Origin: Candidatus Planktophila sulfonica
Lineage (GTDB): Bacteria > Actinomycetota > Actinomycetes > Nanopelagicales > Nanopelagicaceae
NCBI RefSeq assembly: GCF_002288065.1
Contig: NZ_CP016773.1
Span: 992,001 to 1,056,000, forward strand
Direction: 5' to 3'
DNA: 64,000 bases
The translations under genes were made by a program, and so were the position numbers. Below, piece after piece: positions 1,623 to 11,549 of the stretch. A model generated the notes under the pieces. The model made no database searches and was not told where the DNA came from. It was given only the letters and a program-made list of their open reading frames with translations. The first letter of the stretch is position 1, and every line of letters begins with the position of its first letter.

Positions 1623-4600
1623 GAGAGCTCCGATTCCGAAATCTCACGACGGCGACGGCCTGCTGGCAAAGCCAGAACAACTGTGGTGACAAGTACGATG
1701 AGGAAGAAGGAGATCCAAGCTCGTCGAGCAGTGCCATCATGAATTACTGAAATATCTCCACCTGTTGTTACCTCAAATGTTGGTAAACCATTGGCGTTTT
1801 CAATCTTTGCCAATCGATAACCATCTTGGAATACCTGCCAACGCTTGCTGTAGGTCTCAGTTAACGTGATTGTGCCTGGCGTTGGAGCATTGGCACTCAC
1901 GCCCTTCGATTCAAGTACAAATTCTTTTCCAGAGTAATCAACAAACTTGATTCGGCCAGTACTTTCCAATACTCGCCAGACGATTCCGTCTCGGGTCGCT
2001 GAAGTTCTGTTAAAACCGCCCAACCCATCGATCGTCTGAACTACTTCTGGGATGACTGGGTTCTTGAGGAATACGTACTTAATTCCGTAATCTGCAAAGA
2101 CCTTACTTGATGTCACGCCTGTGTTATCGACGAGACCTTCAATGGCCTTTGAAATGACATCTGTATCGGCAGGTGCCACATCAACTTCACCTAAAGTCGC
2201 TGAACTTCCACGCGAAATGTAATAAGAAAGTGTTGGTTCTCCCTTGCTTCGATAAGGTCTTAGCACGACGGTCTTTGCATCATTTTCAATGGCTAAGAAT
2301 GCTGGCAAGACTTCTTTTGAAGATGTGCGCACAGGTGAATCTGCACCTGCAGTGATGAGCCAGAAAATAGATGTTGTTGAGTAGAAGAGAGTCAGTAATA
2401 GCACTGCTGCGACAGAGATATGTCTGTAGTTAATATGTGATTGTTGAAGGCGGGCTCGAATCTTGTCGAACATAACTACTGCTGAAGTGATTGAGAGCAG
2501 CGTTGCAATCGAGAGAAGTGTGCCGGCAAATACTCGAGATGATGTTGCAGCACCATAGCCATGAAGAGTAAGTGCGCTCATGAGGGTTGCAGAGAGCAAG
2601 AAGACGATGCCAAGGGAAGCAAACTTACGGGCTGCAGTTGTAGAGAAATATGTAACAAAGAGAACGAAGGCAATCGGGCTGATTGCCCACCATGGAAGTG
2701 AACCTGGGCCTCCTGGATTTGCCAGGAGCGCGAGGTTGGGTCCCCCACCAGAAACTGTTAATCCGATTTCACCAAGTAAGCGAGATGGGTGAACAAAGTA
2801 TGCAAATGAACCAGGGGCAGATAAGAGGAAAGGAATAAAGAGCAAAGTCAGACGGCGAATTACTCGCTGGATAAATTGAGAATCACGATAATTCTTTTCG
2901 GCAGCTAAGTAATCCCGGTAAATTCTAAAAAGTACAGCTGCAAGAACAATGAGGATTGCAGATGGATTGAAGGCAAAAATCAACCAGATGAAGAGGGAAT
3001 ATGCGTAGATGCTGCGCCACGAGCTCTGATCAATGTCATTCCAATTCTTGAGCTCACCGATAAATATAGGAAGCAGGGCGAGGAAGATGATGACGCCGAG
3101 GCGCCCTGCATTGATGGATGCGATTGCTACTGGTGAGAATGCATAGAGAAGAGCGGCGCCGGATGAGAGCCATTCATTATCTGTAAATCGCTTGAGGTAA
3201 CGATATGAAGTAAGCAGGAGCAGAAATGGTGCTGCAAAGAAGAAGATAGTGATGAGGAGCGGAACATTTCCTAATGTAAATATCGATGCAGTTGAAACGA
3301 GTAATACCCAAGCAGGAGTCGATTCACCGCTACCCATTCCGATTCCATGCCAGCTAGCAAGGTAGAGCTTGAAGAGATCAGATAACCCATCTGGTGATGG
3401 CGCTAGCGCCCCACCTGAGATTGGACCGATGCGATGTCGAGCCCAGAAAAGTGAGACCACAAATATCAAAGTTGTTACGGCAACAATTGGCTGCGTAAAG
3501 AAGAGCTTCCAAGGGCGGTGGGCAACTGGAACCAATAGATCTTCTTCTTCATTAATTGTTAAATCACTCAGCGCAGCAGTTGTATCGCCTGAGTTGTCCG
3601 GCAAGAGCTTGCCTCTGATTACTTCAAATCCACGTGAGAATGAACTGCGCAGTTGCGTCCAACGAGATGGAACAAAAGCCTTTACTACTCGACTTGAAAC
3701 AAAGCGGCTCTTCTTTCTCGCCTTGCGAGCTTCAAAGAGTTCATTGGGATGGATGATGAGAGAGCCGATTGCCAGAATTTCATCACTTGCATATCCAGGT
3801 AACTTTGCAAAGAGGTAACCAACTGCACGGAAAAGTGCGCCGGCAAATAATTGAATTGTGAGCCATGGCAGCGACCAGAAACTTGAATTAGCTAAGAGCA
3901 CGTACGCGGCGTTACGGCGATCGAGCAAGAGTGGACGATGAAGGAATGCGCCCTTTACATCGACATCTCTGCGCTCTGTTGCCGAAGCTTGTGCGTGATA
4001 GCCAACGGCATCTGTTACTACAACGACAGAATGGCCAGCTGTACGAACTCTCCAACCGAAATCGACATCGTCGCGGAATAGTTCGAGGTTCTGGTCGAAA
4101 CCGCCAATCTCTTCAAAGATATCTCGTCTGATGAGTGCACCTGCAGTACTGACTGAAAGTACTTCGTGGATTCCATCTCGTTGACCTTGGTCATATTCAG
4201 ATGGTTCAAGACCAGTCCATCGCGCACCATTGGAGGCCAAACTAATTCCGACTTCGAGTAAGTGGGTGCGATCATGCCAACCAAGAAGTTTGGGTCCTGC
4301 CATGACAACACTTGGTCGTTCGATGAGAACTGCGAGAAGTGATTCAAGAGATGAAGCAGTAAGAGCGCAGTCATCGTGGAGAATCCAAAGCCACTCATCA
4401 ACGCCTTCGACGGGAGTTGCAAGTTGATCCACGCCATATGCAACTGCTGCACCGAAACCAGTTGTGCGATCCAATGTGGCAACCGGAATGCGAGCGCCTT
4501 TAAGAAGTTTCGCTGATGAATCTATTGAGCCAGTATCGACTGCAAGAATTTGATCAACCTGACGAGTTTGTGAAGCGATTGATGCAACAACTTCAGGCAA

Positions 4601-4654
4601 CCACGTTGATCCATCATGGACAACGAGAATTGCTGAAACGCGTTGCGTACTCAT
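1619..4654 (-). CDS. Large membrane glycosyltransferase (GT2 domain plus polytopic module)
   Basis: A 1011-residue protein. Residues about 6-250 form a GT-A fold of family 2: SAILVVHDGSTW at the start, a nucleotide-sugar Asp region near VDTGSIDSS, the metal-binding LHDDC, and GWRVRTAGH near the domain end. The remainder is a membrane module with many hydrophobic helices from about residue 250, an extracytoplasmic segment at roughly 770-950, and a last helix near the C-terminus followed by a basic tail. It probably adds a sugar to an envelope polymer or lipid carrier; acceptor and donor are unknown. This gene between whiB and DUF5719 is a conserved actinobacterial arrangement. A TAAGTT box six bases before the ATG indicates a leaderless promoter separate from that of whiB. 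Confidence 0.88.
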   Translation of the reverse strand: MSTQRVSAILVVHDGSTWLPEVVASIASQTRQVDQILAVDTGSIDSSAKLLKGARIPVATLDRTTGFGAAVAYGVDQLATPVEGVDEWLWILHDDCALTASSLESLLAVLIERPSVVMAGPKLLGWHDRTHLLEVGISLASNGARWTGLEPSEYDQGQRDGIHEVLSVSTAGALIRRDIFEEIGGFDQNLELFRDDVDFGWRVRTAGHSVVVVTDAVGYHAQASATERRDVDVKGAFLHRPLLLDRRNAAYVLLANSSFWSLPWLTIQLFAGALFRAVGYLFAKLPGYASDEILAIGSLIIHPNELFEARKARKKSRFVSSRVVKAFVPSRWTQLRSSFSRGFEVIRGKLLPDNSGDTTAALSDLTINEEEDLLVPVAHRPWKLFFTQPIVAVTTLIFVVSLFWARHRIGPISGGALAPSPDGLSDLFKLYLASWHGIGMGSGESTPAWVLLVSTASIFTLGNVPLLITIFFFAAPFLLLLTSYRYLKRFTDNEWLSSGAALLYAFSPVAIASINAGRLGVIIFLALLPIFIGELKNWNDIDQSSWRSIYAYSLFIWLIFAFNPSAILIVLAAVLFRIYRDYLAAEKNYRDSQFIQRVIRRLTLLFIPFLLSAPGSFAYFVHPSRLLGEIGLTVSGGGPNLALLANPGGPGSLPWWAISPIAFVLFVTYFSTTAARKFASLGIVFLLSATLMSALTLHGYGAATSSRVFAGTLLSIATLLSITSAVVMFDKIRARLQQSHINYRHISVAAVLLLTLFYSTTSIFWLITAGADSPVRTSSKEVLPAFLAIENDAKTVVLRPYRSKGEPTLSYYISRGSSATLGEVDVAPADTDVISKAIEGLVDNTGVTSSKVFADYGIKYVFLKNPVIPEVVQTIDGLGGFNRTSATRDGIVWRVLESTGRIKFVDYSGKEFVLESKGVSANAPTPGTITLTETYSKRWQVFQDGYRLAKIENANGLPTFEVTTGGDISVIHDGTARRAWISFFLIVLVTTVVLALPAGRRRREISESELS

Positions 4655-4660
4655 AAGGGA

Positions 4661-4666
4661 AACTTA
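4661..4666 (-). promoter_or_regulatory. -10 box TAAGTT for the membrane glycosyltransferase, leaderless
   Basis: TAAGTT is followed by six bases (TCCCTT) and the ATG at 4654. No Shine-Dalgarno sequence is seen. Confidence 0.6.
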
Positions 4667-4702
4667 TCGTTTGAAACTGTGAAGTAAATGAAGTGCCCGT
4701 GC

Positions 4703-5011
4703 TTACGCAGGACGACGCTTCAGGCGGCGGCGCTCACGTTCAGAGAGGCCACCCCAAATTCCGAAACGCTCATCATGCGCGAGCGCATATTCGAGACATT
4801 CCTGACGGACTTCGCATGAAAGGCAGACACGCTTTGCTTCACGTGTTGATCCGCCCTTCTCAGGGAAAAAAGCTTCTGGGTCGGTCTGGGCGCAGAGTGA
4901 GCGCTCCTGCCAGGAGAGTTCAATATTCTCTCCGCTAGCGAGTTGGATAGTTGGTCCAGCAGTGGGGGCTGATGGCTTGCCAGTCGATGTTCCTTCTGGG
5001 CGGATCGGCAT
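4703..5011 (-). CDS. whiB: WhiB-family iron-sulfur regulator (WhiB2/WhmD-like)
   Basis: A 102-residue protein with the four cluster-ligand cysteines C40, C63, C66 and C72 (spacing C-x22-C-x2-C-x5-C), the GIWGG turn at 84-88 and a basic C-terminal tail (ERERRRLKRR), the standard WhiB layout. WhiB proteins carry a 4Fe-4S cluster and act on transcription through the principal sigma factor. Its neighbourhood (glycosyltransferase, DUF5719, DUF3499, sugar nucleotidyltransferase) is that of the WhiB2/WhmD branch, which is linked to cell division and septation; the branch assignment is inference from context. A GAGGAG ribosome site lies seven bases before the ATG, and the leader of about 55 nt makes this one of the few clearly leadered genes here. 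Confidence 0.95.
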   Translation of the reverse strand: MPIRPEGTSTGKPSAPTAGPTIQLASGENIELSWQERSLCAQTDPEAFFPEKGGSTREAKRVCLSCEVRQECLEYALAHDERFGIWGGLSERERRRLKRRPA

Positions 5012-5172: not shown

Positions 5173-6129
5173 CTAGAGATTGATGGGTAGATCGAGCTTT
5201 TTAGAGAGGTAATGGGCGCTTTTATTCGTCCCAGCTGCAACTTCTGTCCCATGAGCAATGAAAGAGTGAGCGAGTACCGCCCCATCGCCGATAGTGACAT
5301 CGTCGCCAATAATGCAATCGTCAATCTCAACACCTGAGCCAATTGAACAGCGAGCCCCAATTGAAGTTCCACCTGTAATCCGCGCATCTGAAGCGATAGT
5401 TGTATCAGCCATCGCCTGGAAATCTCCATCGACTAAATCGCGAGAGCCCTTAAAGAGCGCAGCAGGAGTTCCCACATCAAGCCAGTATGACTGCTCTTTG
5501 TAGCCGAATACAGGTCGGCCACTTGAAACGAGCGCTGGAAAGGTTTCTCGTTCAACACTGACAACTTTGCCCAATGGAATCTGATCTATAACGGATGGGC
5601 TAAATACATAACAACCAGCGTTAATTGAATTAGTGACCGGGTTATCCATTTTTTCTAGGAACGCGGTTACGCGACCATCTGAATCTGTAGGAACGCAACC
5701 AAAGGCGCGAGCATCTGCAACATCGATCAGATGCAGCGTTACATCTGCCTTATTCTCTAGATGGAAAGCAATCTGATCAGCGATGGAGTGGCGGCTCAGT
5801 ACATCGCCATTAAAGATAACAACCGGTTCATCGCGTCCAAGTAGTTCTGCCGCATTGCGAATGGCGCCACCGGTGCCCAGAGGCTCTTTCTCAACTGCAT
5901 AAAGAATCTTCATCCCCCACTGAGCTCCATCGCCAAAGTACGGAGTAAAGACGTCTGCAAGATATGAAGTTGCAAGCACTAACGTGTGAATGCCAGCTTT
6001 CTTTGCAGCAAGTATCTGATGTTCAGTAACAGGAAGTCCTGCAACAGGAAGCATTGGCTTCGGTGACTCATCTGTCAGCGGCTTGAGGCGAGTACCAAAG
6101 CCACCCACCAGGAGAATGCCTACAGCCAT
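5173..6129 (-). CDS. Sugar-phosphate nucleotidyltransferase (mannose-1-phosphate guanylyltransferase type)
   Basis: A 318-residue protein. The N-terminal nucleotidyltransferase fold opens with the signature GGFGTRLKPLTDESPKPMLP (residues about 9-28); the FNGDVLS segment carries the metal-binding Asp. Residues about 240-300 are a left-handed beta-helix of hexapeptide repeats (ITGGTSIGARCSIGSGVEI), as in GDP-mannose and related pyrophosphorylases. It makes an NDP-sugar from NTP and sugar 1-phosphate. Actinobacteria often carry a GDP-mannose enzyme of this type near whiB2, which favours GTP and mannose 1-phosphate, but UTP or dTTP with glucose 1-phosphate is not excluded. Its ATG shares one base with the dapC stop (TAATG). 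Confidence 0.85.
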   Translation of the reverse strand: MAVGILLVGGFGTRLKPLTDESPKPMLPVAGLPVTEHQILAAKKAGIHTLVLATSYLADVFTPYFGDGAQWGMKILYAVEKEPLGTGGAIRNAAELLGRDEPVVIFNGDVLSRHSIADQIAFHLENKADVTLHLIDVADARAFGCVPTDSDGRVTAFLEKMDNPVTNSINAGCYVFSPSVIDQIPLGKVVSVERETFPALVSSGRPVFGYKEQSYWLDVGTPAALFKGSRDLVDGDFQAMADTTIASDARITGGTSIGARCSIGSGVEIDDCIIGDDVTIGDGAVLAHSFIAHGTEVAAGTNKSAHYLSKKLDLPINL

Positions 6130-7202
6130 TACTGCGCACTCACTTCACTTGTAATGCGCATTGCTGCTTCAGAAATTTGTTGATCCGTTGCAGTCATCGC
6201 GATTCGGATATGGGTTGCATCTCCATAGAAAATTCCGGGGGTTGCCAGGATTCCAAGGGATGCAAGCCAGGCAACGGATTGCCAGCAATCTTCATTACGG
6301 GTAGCCCAGAGATAAAGGCCGGCATCGGAGAAATCAATGGAAAACCCTGCAGCTTCAAGAGCGGGGATTAAGAGATCTTTTCGAGAGTTATAGCGTGCTC
6401 GTTGTTGAGCGACATGTTCTGAATCTGAAAGCGCAGCAATCATGGCTTTCTGAACCGGAAGTGGAACCATCATTCCTGCATGTTTGCGCACCTCAAGAAT
6501 CTGCGCGATAAGTTGAGGATCACCGACAACAAATGCTGCGCGATAGCCAGCTAGATTCGAGCGCTTAGAAAGTGAGTGCACGGCAAGGATGTTTTTATTA
6601 TCTCCGCCAGTGTGAGCGAGAATTGATGTGGGAGTTACTGTCTTTCCAAATTCGAGGTAACACTCATCAGAAACGACTACTCCCCCGGTTCTGCGCGCCC
6701 AATCAATTGCAGATTGATATTCAGATGCGGAATGCACACGTCCAGTTGGGTTTGATGGTGAATTAACCCACGCTAAATCAGCTTGCGGCCAGTGCGATGC
6801 ATCAATTCCTACTGGCGTTGCTCCAGATTTAGCAATCATTGCCCCGACTAAATAGGTTGGGTAAGCAACTTCAGGATAAAGAACGCTCTGCGATGTCAGA
6901 AAAGTTGGTAGCCACGCAACAAACTCTTTTGAACCGATGAGTGGAAGAACTCCGAACTCACCAGTGGCTCCAAGGTTTAACCTTGCCCATTCTGTAATTG
7001 CAGTACGAAGCTCAGGTGTTCCCATCGTGACGGGATAACTTGGTGAATTTGCAGAGTCTTTTAGCGCTTGTTGAATAAAGTCCGGGGTTGCATCAACAGG
7101 GGTGCCAACAGAGAGATCAATAATTCCTGCTGGATGTTCTTTCGCAGTTGCGCCATATGGAGCGAGCGCATCCCACGGGAAATCAGGAAGTTTGTGGCCC
7201 AA
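6129..7202 (-). CDS. dapC: Succinyldiaminopimelate transaminase (DapC)
   Basis: A 357-residue fold-type I PLP aminotransferase that makes N-succinyl-2-amino-6-ketopimelate into N-succinyl-LL-diaminopimelate for lysine and peptidoglycan. The LPDFPWD start and DLSVGTPVD (about 29-37) are typical of actinobacterial DapC. NSPSNPTGR (147-155) and the PLP lysine in HSLSKRSNLAGYR (K213) are intact. The position directly after fdxA is the conserved actinobacterial order. The ATG lies inside the last codons of fdxA (20-bp overlap), so translation is probably coupled. DapD, which makes the succinylated precursor, is at 24337, so this cell uses the succinylase route. Confidence 0.93.
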   Translation of the reverse strand: MGHKLPDFPWDALAPYGATAKEHPAGIIDLSVGTPVDATPDFIQQALKDSANSPSYPVTMGTPELRTAITEWARLNLGATGEFGVLPLIGSKEFVAWLPTFLTSQSVLYPEVAYPTYLVGAMIAKSGATPVGIDASHWPQADLAWVNSPSNPTGRVHSASEYQSAIDWARRTGGVVVSDECYLEFGKTVTPTSILAHTGGDNKNILAVHSLSKRSNLAGYRAAFVVGDPQLIAQILEVRKHAGMMVPLPVQKAMIAALSDSEHVAQQRARYNSRKDLLIPALEAAGFSIDFSDAGLYLWATRNEDCWQSVAWLASLGILATPGIFYGDATHIRIAMTATDQQISEAAMRITSEVSAQ

Positions 7203-7503
7203 GAGCAGTTACATCTGCATGGTCGGTATTTGTCTCGCCGACCTTTGATGCTCCCCCAGGTGAACCGAGTTCGATAAAGAATTCTGTATTGATCTTCTTG
7301 TAGTTCTGCCACTGTCCTGGAACGTCATCTTCGTAATAGATAGCTTCGACTGGGCATACTGGTTCGCAAGCACCGCAGTCGACACATTCGTCAGGCTGGA
7401 TGTAGAGCATGCGGGTACCGTCATAGATGCAGTCGACTGGGCACTCTTCACGGCAAGACTTATCTTTAACATCCACGCATGGTTCTGCAATTACATATGT
7501 CAC
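7183..7503 (-). CDS. fdxA: 7Fe-8S-type ferredoxin
   Basis: A 106-residue ferredoxin. C9, C17 and the VDC cysteine at 25 fit the first cluster and CVDCGACEPVCP (about 41-52) the 4Fe-4S cluster; the C-terminal WQNYKKINTEFF extension is typical of the mycobacterial FdxA/FdxC group, with one 3Fe-4S and one 4Fe-4S cluster. It is a soluble low-potential electron carrier; the partner is not evident. Translation starts at GTG (7503) behind a strong CGGAGGA site. TAGAAT at 7545-7540 is a plausible -10, giving a short leader. Confidence 0.93.
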   Translation of the reverse strand: MTYVIAEPCVDVKDKSCREECPVDCIYDGTRMLYIQPDECVDCGACEPVCPVEAIYYEDDVPGQWQNYKKINTEFFIELGSPGGASKVGETNTDHADVTALGPQTS

Positions 7504-7583: not shown

Positions 7584-7613
7584 ATGTCCAGCAAAGTCTT
7601 GGGTCAGCGATGA
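7584..7613 (+). CDS. Putative 9-residue leaderless leader peptide before CysRS fusion
   Basis: The ATG at 7584 sits where the TAGGGT-N6 promoter predicts transcription to begin. It encodes MSSKVLGQR and ends at TGA 7611-7613, which overlaps the ATG (7610) of the next gene as ATGA. This arrangement would deliver ribosomes to a start codon that has no Shine-Dalgarno site. Leaderless small ORFs that control cysteine genes are known in mycobacteria, but those carry Cys codons and this one has none. It may only serve translational coupling. Confidence 0.4.
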   Translation: MSSKVLGQR

Positions 7614-9187
7614 ATTTGCCCACCCAGATTGCCCAAGCGCTCGGCAAGCGAGTCACCATTCGGCTTCGCGAAAGCGATGGAACTTTCCGTGATGTGGTTG
7701 GCGTTCTACAGAGTGAGACAACTCTGATTAATCGACGCGGCGAAAGCGTCTCCTTTGATCCTGAAACGGCAGTCGCTTTTCGAGTAATTCCAGTCTTCAA
7801 TCGTCGCGATACTTCTGCAGGTTCGCTATCCATGTACGACACGATGTCGCGAGCCCTGAAGACGATTTCTAGTAGCGACGGTGCAGTACGAATTTACTGC
7901 TGCGGACCAACTGTCTATCGCGATGCCCACGTCGGAAATCTTCGCACTTTTTTGCTATCTGATCTCATCTCTCGAACGTTGCAGATGACTGGTCTTGAAG
8001 TAACTCTCGTTCAGAACATCACCGATGTCGGTCATATGGCAGATGACTTCTCCGAAGAAGACAAGATGCTGGCTGAATCTGAGAAGACGAAGGTTGACCC
8101 TTTTGAAATCGCTCGGACATTTGAAGCGCGCTTTCATTTAGATTTACAACGCCTCAATATTCAGGGTGCTGATTCTTATCCGCGAGCATCAGAGAAGATG
8201 CCTCAGATGATTGCTGCAATTGAGAAACTCATCGATCTTAACTACGCATATGTTGGCAGCGATGGTTCGGTCTACTTTGATGCAACATCATTTCCAACAT
8301 ATGGCGCTTTAAGTGGCAACAAGCTAGAGGCGCTCAAGCCAGGACATCGTTACGAATTTACCGATGAAGGCGGAAAGAGATTTCACGCTGATTGGGCGCT
8401 CTGGAAATTAGCAGGTGCGCGCACACAAATGATTTGGGATTCACCTTGGGGCGCAGGTTTTCCTGGCTGGCATATCGAGTGCAGTGCAATGTCCATCGAG
8501 CTTCTTGACGGTCATGTAGATCTTCATATCGGCGGTATTGATCTGCGCTTTCCTCACCACGAAAATGAGCGTGCCCAATCAGATTCACTCACTGGTGATG
8601 AAACTGTAGATACCTGGGTGCATGGCGAGCACTTGCTCTTTGAAGGTCGCAAGATGTCAAAAAGTGCTGGCAATGTCGTATTGCTACAGGATGTGATTGA
8701 TCGAGGACTAGATCCTCTTTCGCTTCGCTTTGCACTCCTCGAGAACCGTTATCGATCTCAAATGGATTTAAGTTGGGCGTCCCTTGAAGCAGCGCATTCA
8801 ACTCTTAAGCGTTGGCGGCAATTGCTTGCAGATTCAGGCAGTGGCGTTGAATTAAAGTTTGATCAAGAGATTAGCGATGCGTTTACAACTGACCTCGATA
8901 CTCCCCGCGCCATGCAGCGAATTCGTGCCATTGAAAAAGACTCGACAATTGGCGCACTCGATAAACGCGCTCTCTTCTTATTTGCCGATCAAGTACTTGG
9001 CTTAGAGCTCGACCGTGGTGTCGAAAGCAAAGAGCCGAGTGACGAGATCAAAGCCTTGCTTGCTGCTCGAATCACAGCACGAGCTGAAAAGAATTGGTCT
9101 TTAAGTGATTCGCTCCGAGATCAGCTTTCTGAAGCAGGACTTGAGATTAAAGATGGAGCAAACGGTCAAGAGTGGAGCTGGCGTTAG
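7610..9187 (+). CDS. cysS: SH3-like domain fused to divergent cysteinyl-tRNA synthetase
   Basis: 525 residues from ATG 7610. Residues 1-70 resemble the SH3-like domain found before the GNAT domain in Rv0428c-type acetyltransferases (LGKRVTIRLRESDG, then a basic strand and FDPETAVAFRVIP). From about residue 75 a class Ia synthetase follows: YCCGPTVY with a zinc Cys, HVGN as the HIGH motif, GWHIECSAMS and HHENERAQS with the other zinc ligands, and KMSKSAGN. It should charge tRNA-Cys. Where standard bacterial CysRS reads NITDIDDKI this one reads NITDVGHMADD followed by an acidic insertion, so it belongs to a divergent clade and may be a second copy. The internal ATG at 7832 would give CysRS alone but lacks a ribosome site. 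Confidence 0.82.
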   Translation: MNLPTQIAQALGKRVTIRLRESDGTFRDVVGVLQSETTLINRRGESVSFDPETAVAFRVIPVFNRRDTSAGSLSMYDTMSRALKTISSSDGAVRIYCCGPTVYRDAHVGNLRTFLLSDLISRTLQMTGLEVTLVQNITDVGHMADDFSEEDKMLAESEKTKVDPFEIARTFEARFHLDLQRLNIQGADSYPRASEKMPQMIAAIEKLIDLNYAYVGSDGSVYFDATSFPTYGALSGNKLEALKPGHRYEFTDEGGKRFHADWALWKLAGARTQMIWDSPWGAGFPGWHIECSAMSIELLDGHVDLHIGGIDLRFPHHENERAQSDSLTGDETVDTWVHGEHLLFEGRKMSKSAGNVVLLQDVIDRGLDPLSLRFALLENRYRSQMDLSWASLEAAHSTLKRWRQLLADSGSGVELKFDQEISDAFTTDLDTPRAMQRIRAIEKDSTIGALDKRALFLFADQVLGLELDRGVESKEPSDEIKALLAARITARAEKNWSLSDSLRDQLSEAGLEIKDGANGQEWSWR

Positions 9188-9499
9188 CTAAGGACGCCTA
9201 GCTACGGCAAAGATTCCTGCAATAAATCCAAGAGCTAAGAGCGCACTACCTGAGTTATCTCCCTGAATAAGTAGCTCGTTTCCTACTCCAAAAGATCCAG
9301 CTTTAGCGATGACTGCAAGCCAAGAGATGAGCGCAAAGAATTTATAAAGTCTCTTGCCTGTATAACGACCTACCCACCAAATTGCTAGGTGGCTTGCAAG
9401 GATGGCAACAATCGCACCTATTGGTGGAAGCGTTTGATGAATAAGCGTTGCGGAAAGCGCGGTTGCTACGCCGATGAAAATCGCATAAACGAAATTCAT
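9188..9499 (-). CDS. Small four-helix membrane protein beside mshB (possibly DUF6113)
   Basis: A 103-residue protein made almost entirely of hydrophobic segments (about 3-20, 27-44, 55-70 and 80-98) separated by short loops. No catalytic motif is visible. Its ATG overlaps the mshB stop (ATGA at 9496-9499). Small membrane proteins annotated DUF6113 commonly follow mshB in actinobacteria, so membership is plausible from position, but the sequence alone does not prove it. Function unknown. Confidence 0.7.
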
Positions 9500-10368
9500 C
9501 GAGTGATATCTACGCCCGCAAAGAGATCTTGCTCGTAGCCCTTGCTATCAAAAGGTTCGGTTTTCTCGCCCTTCACCAAGGTGTAATACTCATTGCCCCA
9601 CACCTGTAAACCCAAATTGTTCGAGAGCGCAAAAAATGGGCCATCGACTTCGATCTGTGTTGCATGTGCGCGCATTGCATCCATCTTCTGCTCGACATAT
9701 GCGTTTCCATCAACCATGGCATGAACGAATGAATCATCTTTAGCAAATGGAAGGTCTTCTGCCTTTTCGGCACCAAAGAAATCAGAACCGACTTCCTTCA
9801 TCGCATCAATGCCCTCTTGAATAACGGACCTTGGCATGACGTTCCAATAAATCTTCTCAATATCCCAATGTGACTTCTCTGATGCTCGCATGGCAACGCG
9901 ATGGGCTTGAATGTGATCTGGGTGGCCATATCCGCCAATTTCGTCATACGTGATCATCACATGAGGCTTAACCTCGTCAATGATTGCAACTAAATCATCT
10001 GAGGCTCTCTCAAGATCTGCCTGCCAGAAAACATCGGGGCGATTATTTGGTTCTGTACCCATCATTCCGCTGTCTCGATACTTTTTTGTATCGCCGCCAA
10101 GGAAACGGTGATCCGAAATTCCGAGCGCTTTCATAGCAACAGCTAGCTCTTGAACGCGATGATCGCCAAGTGAATCAGTTGCATGTGCAGCTAAATGTGC
10201 AAGATCGGGAACTAGGACTTCACCTTCTTCACCACGTGTACATGTAACCAGCGTGACTTCAGCGCCAAGAGCTGCATACAACGCCATAGTGCTTCCATTG
10301 TTAATAGTTTCGTCGTCGGGATGAGCATGCACGAGCAGCATGCGATAACCCTTGTAACTATTGAGCAT
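9496..10368 (-). CDS. mshB: Mycothiol biosynthesis deacetylase MshB
   Basis: 290 residues from the ATG at 10368, which overlaps the moeZ stop as TAATG; a longer in-frame start at 10407 lies well inside moeZ and is less likely. The zinc motif AHPDDE (15-20) and the second motif [12 protein letters not shown] mark the PIG-L/LmbE deacetylase family, and the C-terminal [19 protein letters not shown] matches MshB rather than the mycothiol conjugate amidase Mca. It removes the acetyl group from GlcNAc-inositol to give GlcN-inositol, the acceptor for cysteine in mycothiol synthesis. It implies that this organism makes mycothiol; the other msh genes are not in this window. Confidence 0.9.
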
Positions 10369-11549
10369 TAGTAGACCGGAAGAGATGTATCGATCTGCTT
10401 TGCCCATGCGATGACGCCACCAGAAACATGTGAAGCATCAGCAAAACCAGCGCTCTTAAGAATTGCAAGACACTCAGCTGAGCGAACGCCGCTCTTGCAG
10501 TGAAGAACGATTGGCTTATCTTGCGGAAGAGATGCGAGCACGCTTCCGTCGATAAATCCTTGCTTAGGAATTAAGTGCGCGGTTGGAATATTGACGATTT
10601 CGTACTCACTAGGTTCACGAACATCGATGAGATAGAAATCTTCTTTGCTATCAATCTTTGTCTTGAGCTCTTGAACGGTAATCGTTGAACCCGTGCTTGC
10701 TTCCTGTGCTGCATCTGAAAGTGTTCCGCAGAATGCTTCATAGTCAGGAAGAAGTGCGGTTTGAGTCGCATTTTCGCTGCAGAGTGGGCAGTTAGGATCT
10801 TTACGAACTTTGATCTTTCGGAATGTCATTTCAAGTGCGTCATAGACCATCAGTGAACCGATAAGTGGTTCGCCAACTCCGGTGAGAACCTTGATCGCTT
10901 CTGTTGTTTGGATTGATCCAATAGTTGCGCAGAGAACTCCAAGCACGCCACCTTCGGCGCAGCTTGGAACCATTCCTGGAGGTGGTGGTTCTGGATAGAG
11001 GCAGCGGTAGCAAGGACCGTACTCAGCCCAGAAAACGCTCGCCTGTCCATCGAAGCGATAAATCGAACCCCAGACATAAGGCTTCTTCAACAGCACGCAT
11101 GCATCGTTGACGAGGTAGCGAGTTGCAAAATTATCTGTTCCGTCGACGATGATGTCGTATTGAGAAAAGATCTCCATGACATTTGAATTATCGAGACGAG
11201 TTTCGTGCAAGACGACATTTACATATGGGTTAATCTCGGCAATTTTCTCTTTTGCGCTAAGCGCCTTGCTCTTTCCAATATCTGATTGGCCGTGAATGAT
11301 TTGGCGCTGCAAATTAGATTCATCGACGGTATCGAATTCAACGATTCCGAGAGTTCCGACTCCGGCTGCAGCAAGATACATAAGTGCTGGAGAGCCCAAT
11401 CCACCTGCTCCAACGCAGAGCACCTTTGCATTCATCAATCGCTGCTGGCCAGCCATTGCGACATCAGGAATGATCAAGTGGCGGCTATAGCGGCGCACTT
11501 CATCAACGGTGAGCACTGGGCCTGGCGCGACTAGTGGAGGCGTCTTCAT
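10368..11549 (-). CDS. moeZ: Adenylyltransferase/sulfurtransferase MoeZ
   Basis: 393 residues. The N-terminal ThiF/E1-like domain has [17 protein letters not shown] (about 47-63) for ATP and two CxxC pairs (CYRC, CPLC) that bind zinc. A C-terminal rhodanese domain holds the sulfur-carrying Cys in [12 protein letters not shown]. It adenylates and thiolates the C-termini of sulfur carrier proteins (MoaD, ThiS or CysO types) for molybdopterin, thiamin or cysteine synthesis; which partner is used here cannot be told. It overlaps mshB by one base. A CAGAAT box seven bases before the ATG resembles the leaderless pattern seen elsewhere but has C in the first position. Confidence 0.92.

Follow-up and report, generated by a model that had tools for sequence, protein, structure and literature searches.

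Why would a cell have two cysteine-charging enzymes for one tRNA, and why would one of them carry a small extra domain? The question is raised by a gene of Candidatus Planktophila sulfonica (Actinomycetota, Nanopelagicaceae), found in a stretch of 64,000 nucleotides (nt), hereafter the window, that covers positions 992,001 to 1,056,000 of contig NZ_CP016773.1. A single open reading frame (ORF) at positions 7610-9187 of the forward strand, with 525 codons, a terminal stop and no internal one, joins an SH3-like domain to a cysteinyl-tRNA synthetase (CysRS). Besides this gene, the genome encodes a standard cysS, an mshC and a single tRNA-Cys; hence, the window gene is a second CysRS, which we call CysX. 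The reading we favour, with a probability of about two in three (0.68), is that CysX is an auxiliary full-length CysRS beside the standard CysS, and that its N-terminal barrel would have been captured from a neighbouring SH3-GNAT gene. No description of an SH3-CysRS fusion, nor of a second translational CysRS in actinobacteria, was found in the open-licence literature, and CysX makes the question above a testable one.

Architecture of the fused gene

The CysRS part of the protein spans residues 73-525 and is full-length. The window protein passes the cysteinyl-tRNA synthetase model TIGR00435 (385.9 bits for a curated cut-off of 340) and fails the PRK14536-type CysRS model NF011108 (376.6 bits, cut-off 780). 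It matches the catalytic domain PF01406 with 311.7 bits (residues 89-396, positions 7874-8797) and the anticodon-binding domain PF23493 with 33.6 bits (cut-off 23; residues 477-522, positions 9038-9175). Residue conservation was counted over the 130 distinct CysX sequences of the family: C98, H107, N110, D139, H142, K152, W287, C291, H316, H317, E318, E320, K348, K351, R491, D500 and D515 are invariant in all of them, and position 496 is always aromatic (W in 81, F in 41, Y in 8). The KMSKS motif, placed by the family alignment, occupies residues 348-352 (8651-8665). We take C98, C291, H317 and E320 to be the zinc ligands, by correspondence with the Escherichia coli enzyme, and presume that R491, W496, D500 and D515, the aligned counterparts of R427, W432, D436 and D451 in E. 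coli, contact the anticodon. Foldseek searches with the full AlphaFold2 model have tRNA-Cys-bound CysRS 1u0b as top match (E 9.6e-27), followed by other CysRSs and MshC. The mean predicted local distance difference test score (pLDDT) of this model is 74.8 and its predicted template modelling score 0.70; values fall below 50 at linker residues 62-69 and in parts of the catalytic domain, so that no conclusion is drawn on the packing of barrel and enzyme. Judging from its sequence, CysX is a complete and probably active second CysRS.

The initial annotation had pointed out that the first domain runs straight into a CysRS whose DIDDK region reads DVGHMADD followed by an acidic insert. The uninterrupted ORF bears this out, the variant stretch TDVGHMADDFSEEDK (DVGHMADD...EEDK) lying at 8021-8065. 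A special role had also been considered possible for such a second CysRS, and we rule out that the motif points to one: DVGH and its insert mark no such role because solved CysRSs of Borrelia burgdorferi (3SP1, NITDIGHLTGDLDDGEDK) and Elizabethkingia sp. (6UJD, NITDAGHLTDDGNIENDR) have the motif at the aligned position, and because in genomes of another class a CysX-type gene is the sole full-length CysRS found (see below). These two enzymes resemble CysX in being full-length CysRSs with xGHL and an acidic insert in place of DIDDK, with HxGN (HVGN in the window CysX, HIGN in 3SP1 and HLGN in 6UJD, at the HIGH motif position), with MSKS and with a similar anticodon domain. They differ in sequence, being 26-32% identical in Foldseek alignments, and their alignment with the window protein is confined to its CysRS part.

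Residues 1-60 (7610-7789) are predicted to form a small SH3-like beta-barrel. Against the Pfam family SH3_Rv0428c (PF24551), the N-terminal 81 residues score 23.6 bits (E 5.6e-5) and a 64-residue N-terminal piece 24.5 bits (E 2.9e-5, the best score), both under the gathering cut-off of 27; the match covers residues 10-58, and 19 of 25 aligned SH3 rows match the same family (E up to 0.01). We consider this sub-threshold match settled because whole SH3-GNAT genes hold the same place in relatives; the SH3 part of the window protein is 43% and 51% identical to those of two such genes, at loci L028 and L029. The linker (residues 61-72, 7790-7825), which begins VIPVFNRRD, resembles the start of the inter-domain linker of the SH3-GNAT gene at L029 (VIPLPDRAG) and, less so, those at L028 and L161. 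The domain scan matched no GNAT domain in the window protein. A search of the whole genome with a relative's SH3-GNAT protein found no complete copy elsewhere; it matched the SH3 part of the fused gene and, at 19.9 bits, one GNAT.

The annotated origin of the N-terminal domain, in Rv0428c-type acetyltransferases, is thus upheld by the Pfam search together with synteny. The GNAT gene expected beside fdxA is likewise present in relatives, and PMC3827942 states this arrangement for cg3035 homologues; the same paper describes Cg3035 as the N-acetylglutamate synthase of Corynebacterium glutamicum. Genes of the Cg3035/Rv0428c type would be the source of the SH3-like domain, the window protein differing from them in having no GNAT part. 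Two scanned SH3-GNAT proteins of relatives pass PF24553 (Rv0428c_C; 63.6 and 67.8 bits, cut-off 27.2). They match the Cg3035 model NF049894 over nearly its full length, with 102-103 bits for a cut-off of 280, so that N-acetylglutamate synthase activity is putative in their case.

CysRS genes in the genome, the family and the class

The assembly is a single contig of 1.34 Mb with three CysRS-like genes: CysX, a standard cysS (P0002, L034:4015-5418) and an mshC (P0003). The presence of a second CysRS, one of the options of the initial annotation, is therefore confirmed. The own CysS belongs to the same TIGR00435 family as CysX but is 35% identical to it, is of the DIDDK type, lacks the SH3 domain and lies in another neighbourhood, which we take to be carD-ispDF-cysS-rlmB-like. 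Among the 37 tRNA genes there is one ordinary tRNA-Cys(gca), with no second or odd tRNA-Cys and no SelC*-like tRNA. This separates CysX from the CysRS* of Desulfobacterales, another second CysRS in a bacterium: according to PMC9437257, CysRS* has no anticodon domain and works with a SelC*-type tRNA, whereas CysX has this domain in a genome with ordinary tRNAs only. For mycobacteria, PMC4721953 reports two CysRS genes, one of them being MshC.

We searched 296 genomes of the family for CysX, taking matches better than 1e-80 as such. The gene was found in 247 of them, the other 49 having weaker matches only (one, G204, with a CysX cut by the contig end). In the subset of 47 genomes with a listed completeness of at least 98%, CysX occurs in 41 (best E below 1e-100) and the canonical cysS in 46, the exception (G225) being an assembly of 180 contigs. 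Both genes are present in each of the 17 single-contig genomes. CysX as a replacement for a lost cysS is thereby ruled out, here and in the 46 genomes with cysS. Within the family CysX is common, extra and dispensable, the last because 6 of the 47 most complete genomes do without it. Streamlined actinobacteria of this group keep few spare genes, and yet most of these genomes hold a second CysRS. The closest named relative at the locus is Actinobacteria bacterium IMCC25003 (90%), a metagenome-assembled genome (MAG) of Candidatus Planktophila being more distant (64%). Both names agree with a place in the acI (Nanopelagicaceae) group of tiny, freshwater-type actinobacteria.

The gene extends beyond the family. 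In a search of 148 genomes of the class, CysX was found in 22 genomes of 12 other families (E up to 1e-85). The 18 loci fetched from these families have fdxA and/or dapC near CysX in 16 cases; within 1.6 kb upstream of CysX, four have an SH3-GNAT gene, six a close SH3 without a GNAT match, two an SH3 match further off and six none; L293 lies at a contig end. From these comparisons, the CysX locus appears to be older than the family. In the reading we favour, CysX would make Cys-tRNA-Cys for translation, perhaps when CysS is limiting.

Locus states and the origin of the fusion

Where contigs allow, the order of genes in the family is dapC-fdxA-[X]-CysX-(103-aa ORF)-mshB-moeZ, in which X varies (the names dapC and moeZ in relatives are our assumption). 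Among 151 family CysX loci, in which some genomes were fetched twice, the SH3 part is fused to CysX in 50, stands alone in 50 (including the frameshifted L147), belongs to an SH3-GNAT gene in 43 and was not found in 8 (including L030, at a contig end). A 4-nt overlap between the SH3 stop and the CysX start is seen in 40 of the 45 distinct SH3-alone pairs, and in 12 of the 42 pairs with SH3-GNAT. In L147 itself (match 3001-4822, MAG UBA5975), the SH3-CysX gene reads as frameshifted, by sequencing error or decay.

The initial annotation had considered a fusion unique to this lineage, an idea that the trees of CysX do not sustain. In a quick tree of 130 rows, which flags long branches, the fused label requires five changes, four of them forced by well-supported branches. 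In a careful tree of 49 of these rows, hand-picked to cover all states, it requires four changes, all four forced, and a single change suffices in 0% of 200 bootstrap trees. A single clade of all fused rows is rejected by the approximately unbiased test (p-AU 1.1e-51), as is the union of the g11 and g4 fusions (p-AU 0.0007). In the careful tree, the fused clades of the window's gene are surrounded by SH3-GNAT rows, the fusions of g11 and g4 by SH3-alone rows, and those of g13 lie beside an SH3-GNAT row; the genus of the window has two fused clades, which may have one or two origins (support 43/45). Fused genes are thus placed by phylogeny in at least four separate parts of the CysX tree.

We regard these as separate events, since otherwise fused genes would have had to split again and several clades to regain an intact GNAT part at the same place. 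Hence, we infer that the GNAT part was lost repeatedly and not regained, and that the fusions arose independently. For the window's lineage, the simplest event would be a deletion that removed the GNAT part from between SH3 and CysX. More generally, the SH3-GNAT neighbour would decay by losing its GNAT part, leaving the SH3 free or fused to CysX; the adjacency and overlap of the genes would have made fusion easy, and selection on the barrel would have kept it. Support is good for the architecture and for its intermediate states. With these intermediates still visible, the repeated joining of CysX to one kind of barrel offers a clear natural series for the gain of an appended domain by an aminoacyl-tRNA synthetase.

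Selection on the SH3 part and structure of the barrel

Ratios of nonsynonymous to synonymous divergence (dN/dS) indicate purifying selection on the SH3 part, whether it is fused, alone or joined to GNAT. When SH3 dN is divided by the dS of CysX, the ratio is 0.075 in the window clade (CysX itself 0.066; 18 pairs) and 0.038 in both the SH3-alone state (28 pairs) and the GNAT state (16 pairs). With the dS of the SH3 part itself, pooled ratios are 0.182 when fused (10 pairs), 0.066 when alone (16 pairs) and 0.092 with GNAT (16 pairs; 0.146 for the GNAT part). Medians over unmatched pairs, also with own dS, are 0.18-0.30 for SH3, 0.34 for GNAT and 0.06-0.08 for CysX. The SH3 figures vary by method, because its dS is low and the domain is short, and all are well under 1. 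In the same pairs, synonymous divergence is lower in the SH3 part than in CysX (0.228 and 0.595 when fused, 0.331 and 0.746 when alone), which suggests an extra constraint at the nucleotide level at the 5' end.

Modelled alone with AlphaFold2, residues 1-64 form a helix (residues 3-9) and five strands with a mean pLDDT of 92.5. Foldseek gave no match for this barrel at E 0.001, the best being Hfq (0.07) and the tRNA-dependent amidotransferase GatD (0.14, template modelling score 0.68). In VIA-align, the Z score was 9.0 for GerQ, at most 8.2 for Hfq and 7.8 for both RimP and an archaeal Sm protein, levels that, as the tool warns, can reflect merely a common arrangement. An SH3 profile searched against PDB sequences returned one match, at E 1.6, and nothing significant. 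Barrels of the PsaE-like or other ferredoxin-docking types are absent from the Foldseek and VIA-align matches listed, which excludes nothing. The Sm/Hfq-like shape makes an RNA-binding role of the barrel only a lead.

The barrel with and without CysX

Several observations weigh against the reading of CysX as an auxiliary enzyme with a captured barrel. Six of the 47 family genomes with the highest completeness lack the gene, and a cell that has a standard CysS for its single tRNA-Cys shows no obvious need of another such enzyme. Change counts on the tree alone cannot separate gain from loss. On its own dS the SH3 part is less constrained than CysX, both in the medians given above (0.18-0.30 against 0.06-0.08) and in the fused state (0.182 against 0.065). 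Seven family loci, all in one clade and none at a contig end, have CysX without a detectable SH3. Finally, 11 of 35 family genomes that lack CysX keep the SH3 as an ORF by itself, 67-96 codons long, next to fdxA. These 35 genomes were searched with an SH3-GNAT protein and their loci read: 18 have an SH3-GNAT gene (cut in G266), which adjoins fdxA in 17, the contig of G284 ending before that point; one, G204, has SH3 followed by the CysX cut by the contig end, and five have no SH3 match.

SH3 without CysX and CysX without SH3 thus both occur, and neither needs the other. The SH3 part as an obligate partner of CysX was dropped as a candidate, given the stand-alone genes in CysX-lacking genomes. 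The barrel thus appears to be useful by itself, its link to CysX being frequent but not obligatory. The free SH3 is an unnamed small protein that may have its own function. It stands beside fdxA with neither CysX nor GNAT at loci L262-L268 and L270-L273 (for example L264:1477-1677 and L267:1471-1689). The free SH3 of L132, the sole one scanned, matched no NCBIfam family.

These observations give some weight to an account that is compatible with CysX being a synthetase, namely that the barrel serves its own function and that fusion is a by-product of overlap and deletion in shrinking genomes, with CysX as a mere carrier. The barrel without CysX, the clade with CysX but no SH3 and the 4-nt overlap that eases fusion in most SH3-alone pairs would all be expected from it. 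However, fusions at no fewer than four places, their retention by whole clades and the purifying selection on the barrel inside the fusion speak for more than a by-product, even if they also fit a self-serving barrel. We therefore see this account as a serious one but on the unlikely side. Under the reading we favour, with CysX as an auxiliary enzyme, the appended barrel would serve to tune CysX through its binding to RNA (tRNA or ribosome) or to a partner protein. A narrower version is rather doubtful: the SH3 module would be an RNA-binding, Sm/Hfq-like barrel, freed as a protein of about 60-80 residues after loss of GNAT, which acts alone, in trans beside CysX, or in cis as a CysX regulator after at least four captures.

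A role in translation or outside it

The cysteinyl-adenylate made by CysX might instead be used outside translation, with CysX acting in the manner of MshC as a thiol, Fe-S or persulfide cysteine ligase. Such a use is consistent with the standard CysS that 46 of the 47 genomes of highest completeness have, and with the position of CysX adjoining fdxA and near mshB; CysRS paralogues with other jobs are known, as PMC9437257 relates. Mycothiol and Fe-S proteins were the special roles entertained in the initial annotation, and neither is supported. The genome has its own MshC, which scores 546.6 bits on the MshC model TIGR03447 (cut-off 485.1), and the window protein fails this model with 228.7 bits. 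This MshC and those of PDB 3C8Z and 8HFM have the CysRS catalytic fold in common with CysX; the own MshC is 33% identical to CysX and the domain scan matched no anticodon domain in it, whereas CysX retains this domain with the presumed contact positions. The proximity of mshB is not a hint either, since that gene lies on the opposite strand behind another ORF; mshB and CysX are convergent and therefore not in one operon.

The CysX-type genes of other classes also point to translation. A search of 396 genomes of the phylum gave 33 genomes of other classes with CysX-type matches of at least 355 bits, of which 24 were searched with the standard cysS. In f16, a family of another class with 17 genomes listed, the CysX-type gene is the only full-length CysRS found in all 11 genomes searched (three have further matches, all below 23 bits). 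Since these 11 genomes are 84-96% complete, a missed CysRS is possible in one but hardly in all. The groups f15, f18, f21, f46, f48, f51 and others have a standard CysRS alongside the CysX-type gene. A phylogeny of 29 CysX-type genes of other classes and 18 CysX of the family, together with CysS and MshC of the genome itself, a quick tree in which the MshC branch is very long, puts all CysX-type rows on one side of a branch with support 97, apart from CysS and MshC. With a sole CysRS of this type in f16, the retained anticodon domain and a separate MshC in the genome, we find a use outside translation improbable, and CysX as an auxiliary synthetase remains our preferred reading.

A shared operon partner of CysX-type genes was also sought in other classes. 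In loci L067-L086, where ORF calling is noisy owing to high GC content, no match to our reference set was seen for SH3, fdxA or mshB. The recurring neighbours there are, judging from their sequences, presumably FtsH-like, M24-peptidase-like and helicase-like.

Start of translation

That the SH3 part is an untranslated or non-functional 5' sequence, CysX starting only at the in-frame ATG 7832, is hardly credible in spite of a short ORF just upstream of ATG 7610. Among 35 distinct fused genes, 12 lack any ATG, GTG, TTG or CTG between 60 nt upstream and 12 nt downstream of the point where the CysRS part starts, and 9 still lack one when the downstream limit is set at 24 nt; in addition, SH3 dN/dS is well under 1 and the barrel is confidently predicted. 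An additional internal start may exist in the window gene itself. The short upstream ORF (7584-7613) has nine codons, is out of frame, overlaps ATG 7610 as ATGA and lies directly behind a promoter-like CACGATTAxGGTT. The same layout is found in L005 and L006, the other 22 fused loci having other or no short out-of-frame ORFs.

Neighbouring genes and minor observations

On the reverse strand upstream of CysX lie a divergent fdxA-like ferredoxin gene (7183-7503), as named in the initial annotation, and an aminotransferase gene (6129-7202) that we presume to be dapC-like; both are neighbours of CysX in relatives too. Downstream, also on the reverse strand and convergent with CysX, are the 103-aa ORF (9188-9499), present in the ORF list and the locus comparison, and the mshB-like gene (9496-10407), whose name is again that of the initial annotation.

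The sequences of L124, L136, L145 and L146, titled "MAG: Bifidobacterium breve", carry the locus with 57-74% identity to the window protein, and their titles look mislabelled. Two MAGs have two CysX copies each (L148 and L205 in G281; L171 and L179 in G215); as their contamination is 4% and 7%, respectively, mixed bins are likely. In the genome of Candidatus P. sulfonica itself, a short match to the end of the CysX anticodon domain (45% over 47 aa; G000:C1:1119600-1119740, L004) lies inside another frame of 301 aa, and similar short matches occur in frames of 315-327 aa in several other genomes of the family. The 301-aa frame is a separate protein that shares the small anticodon domain.

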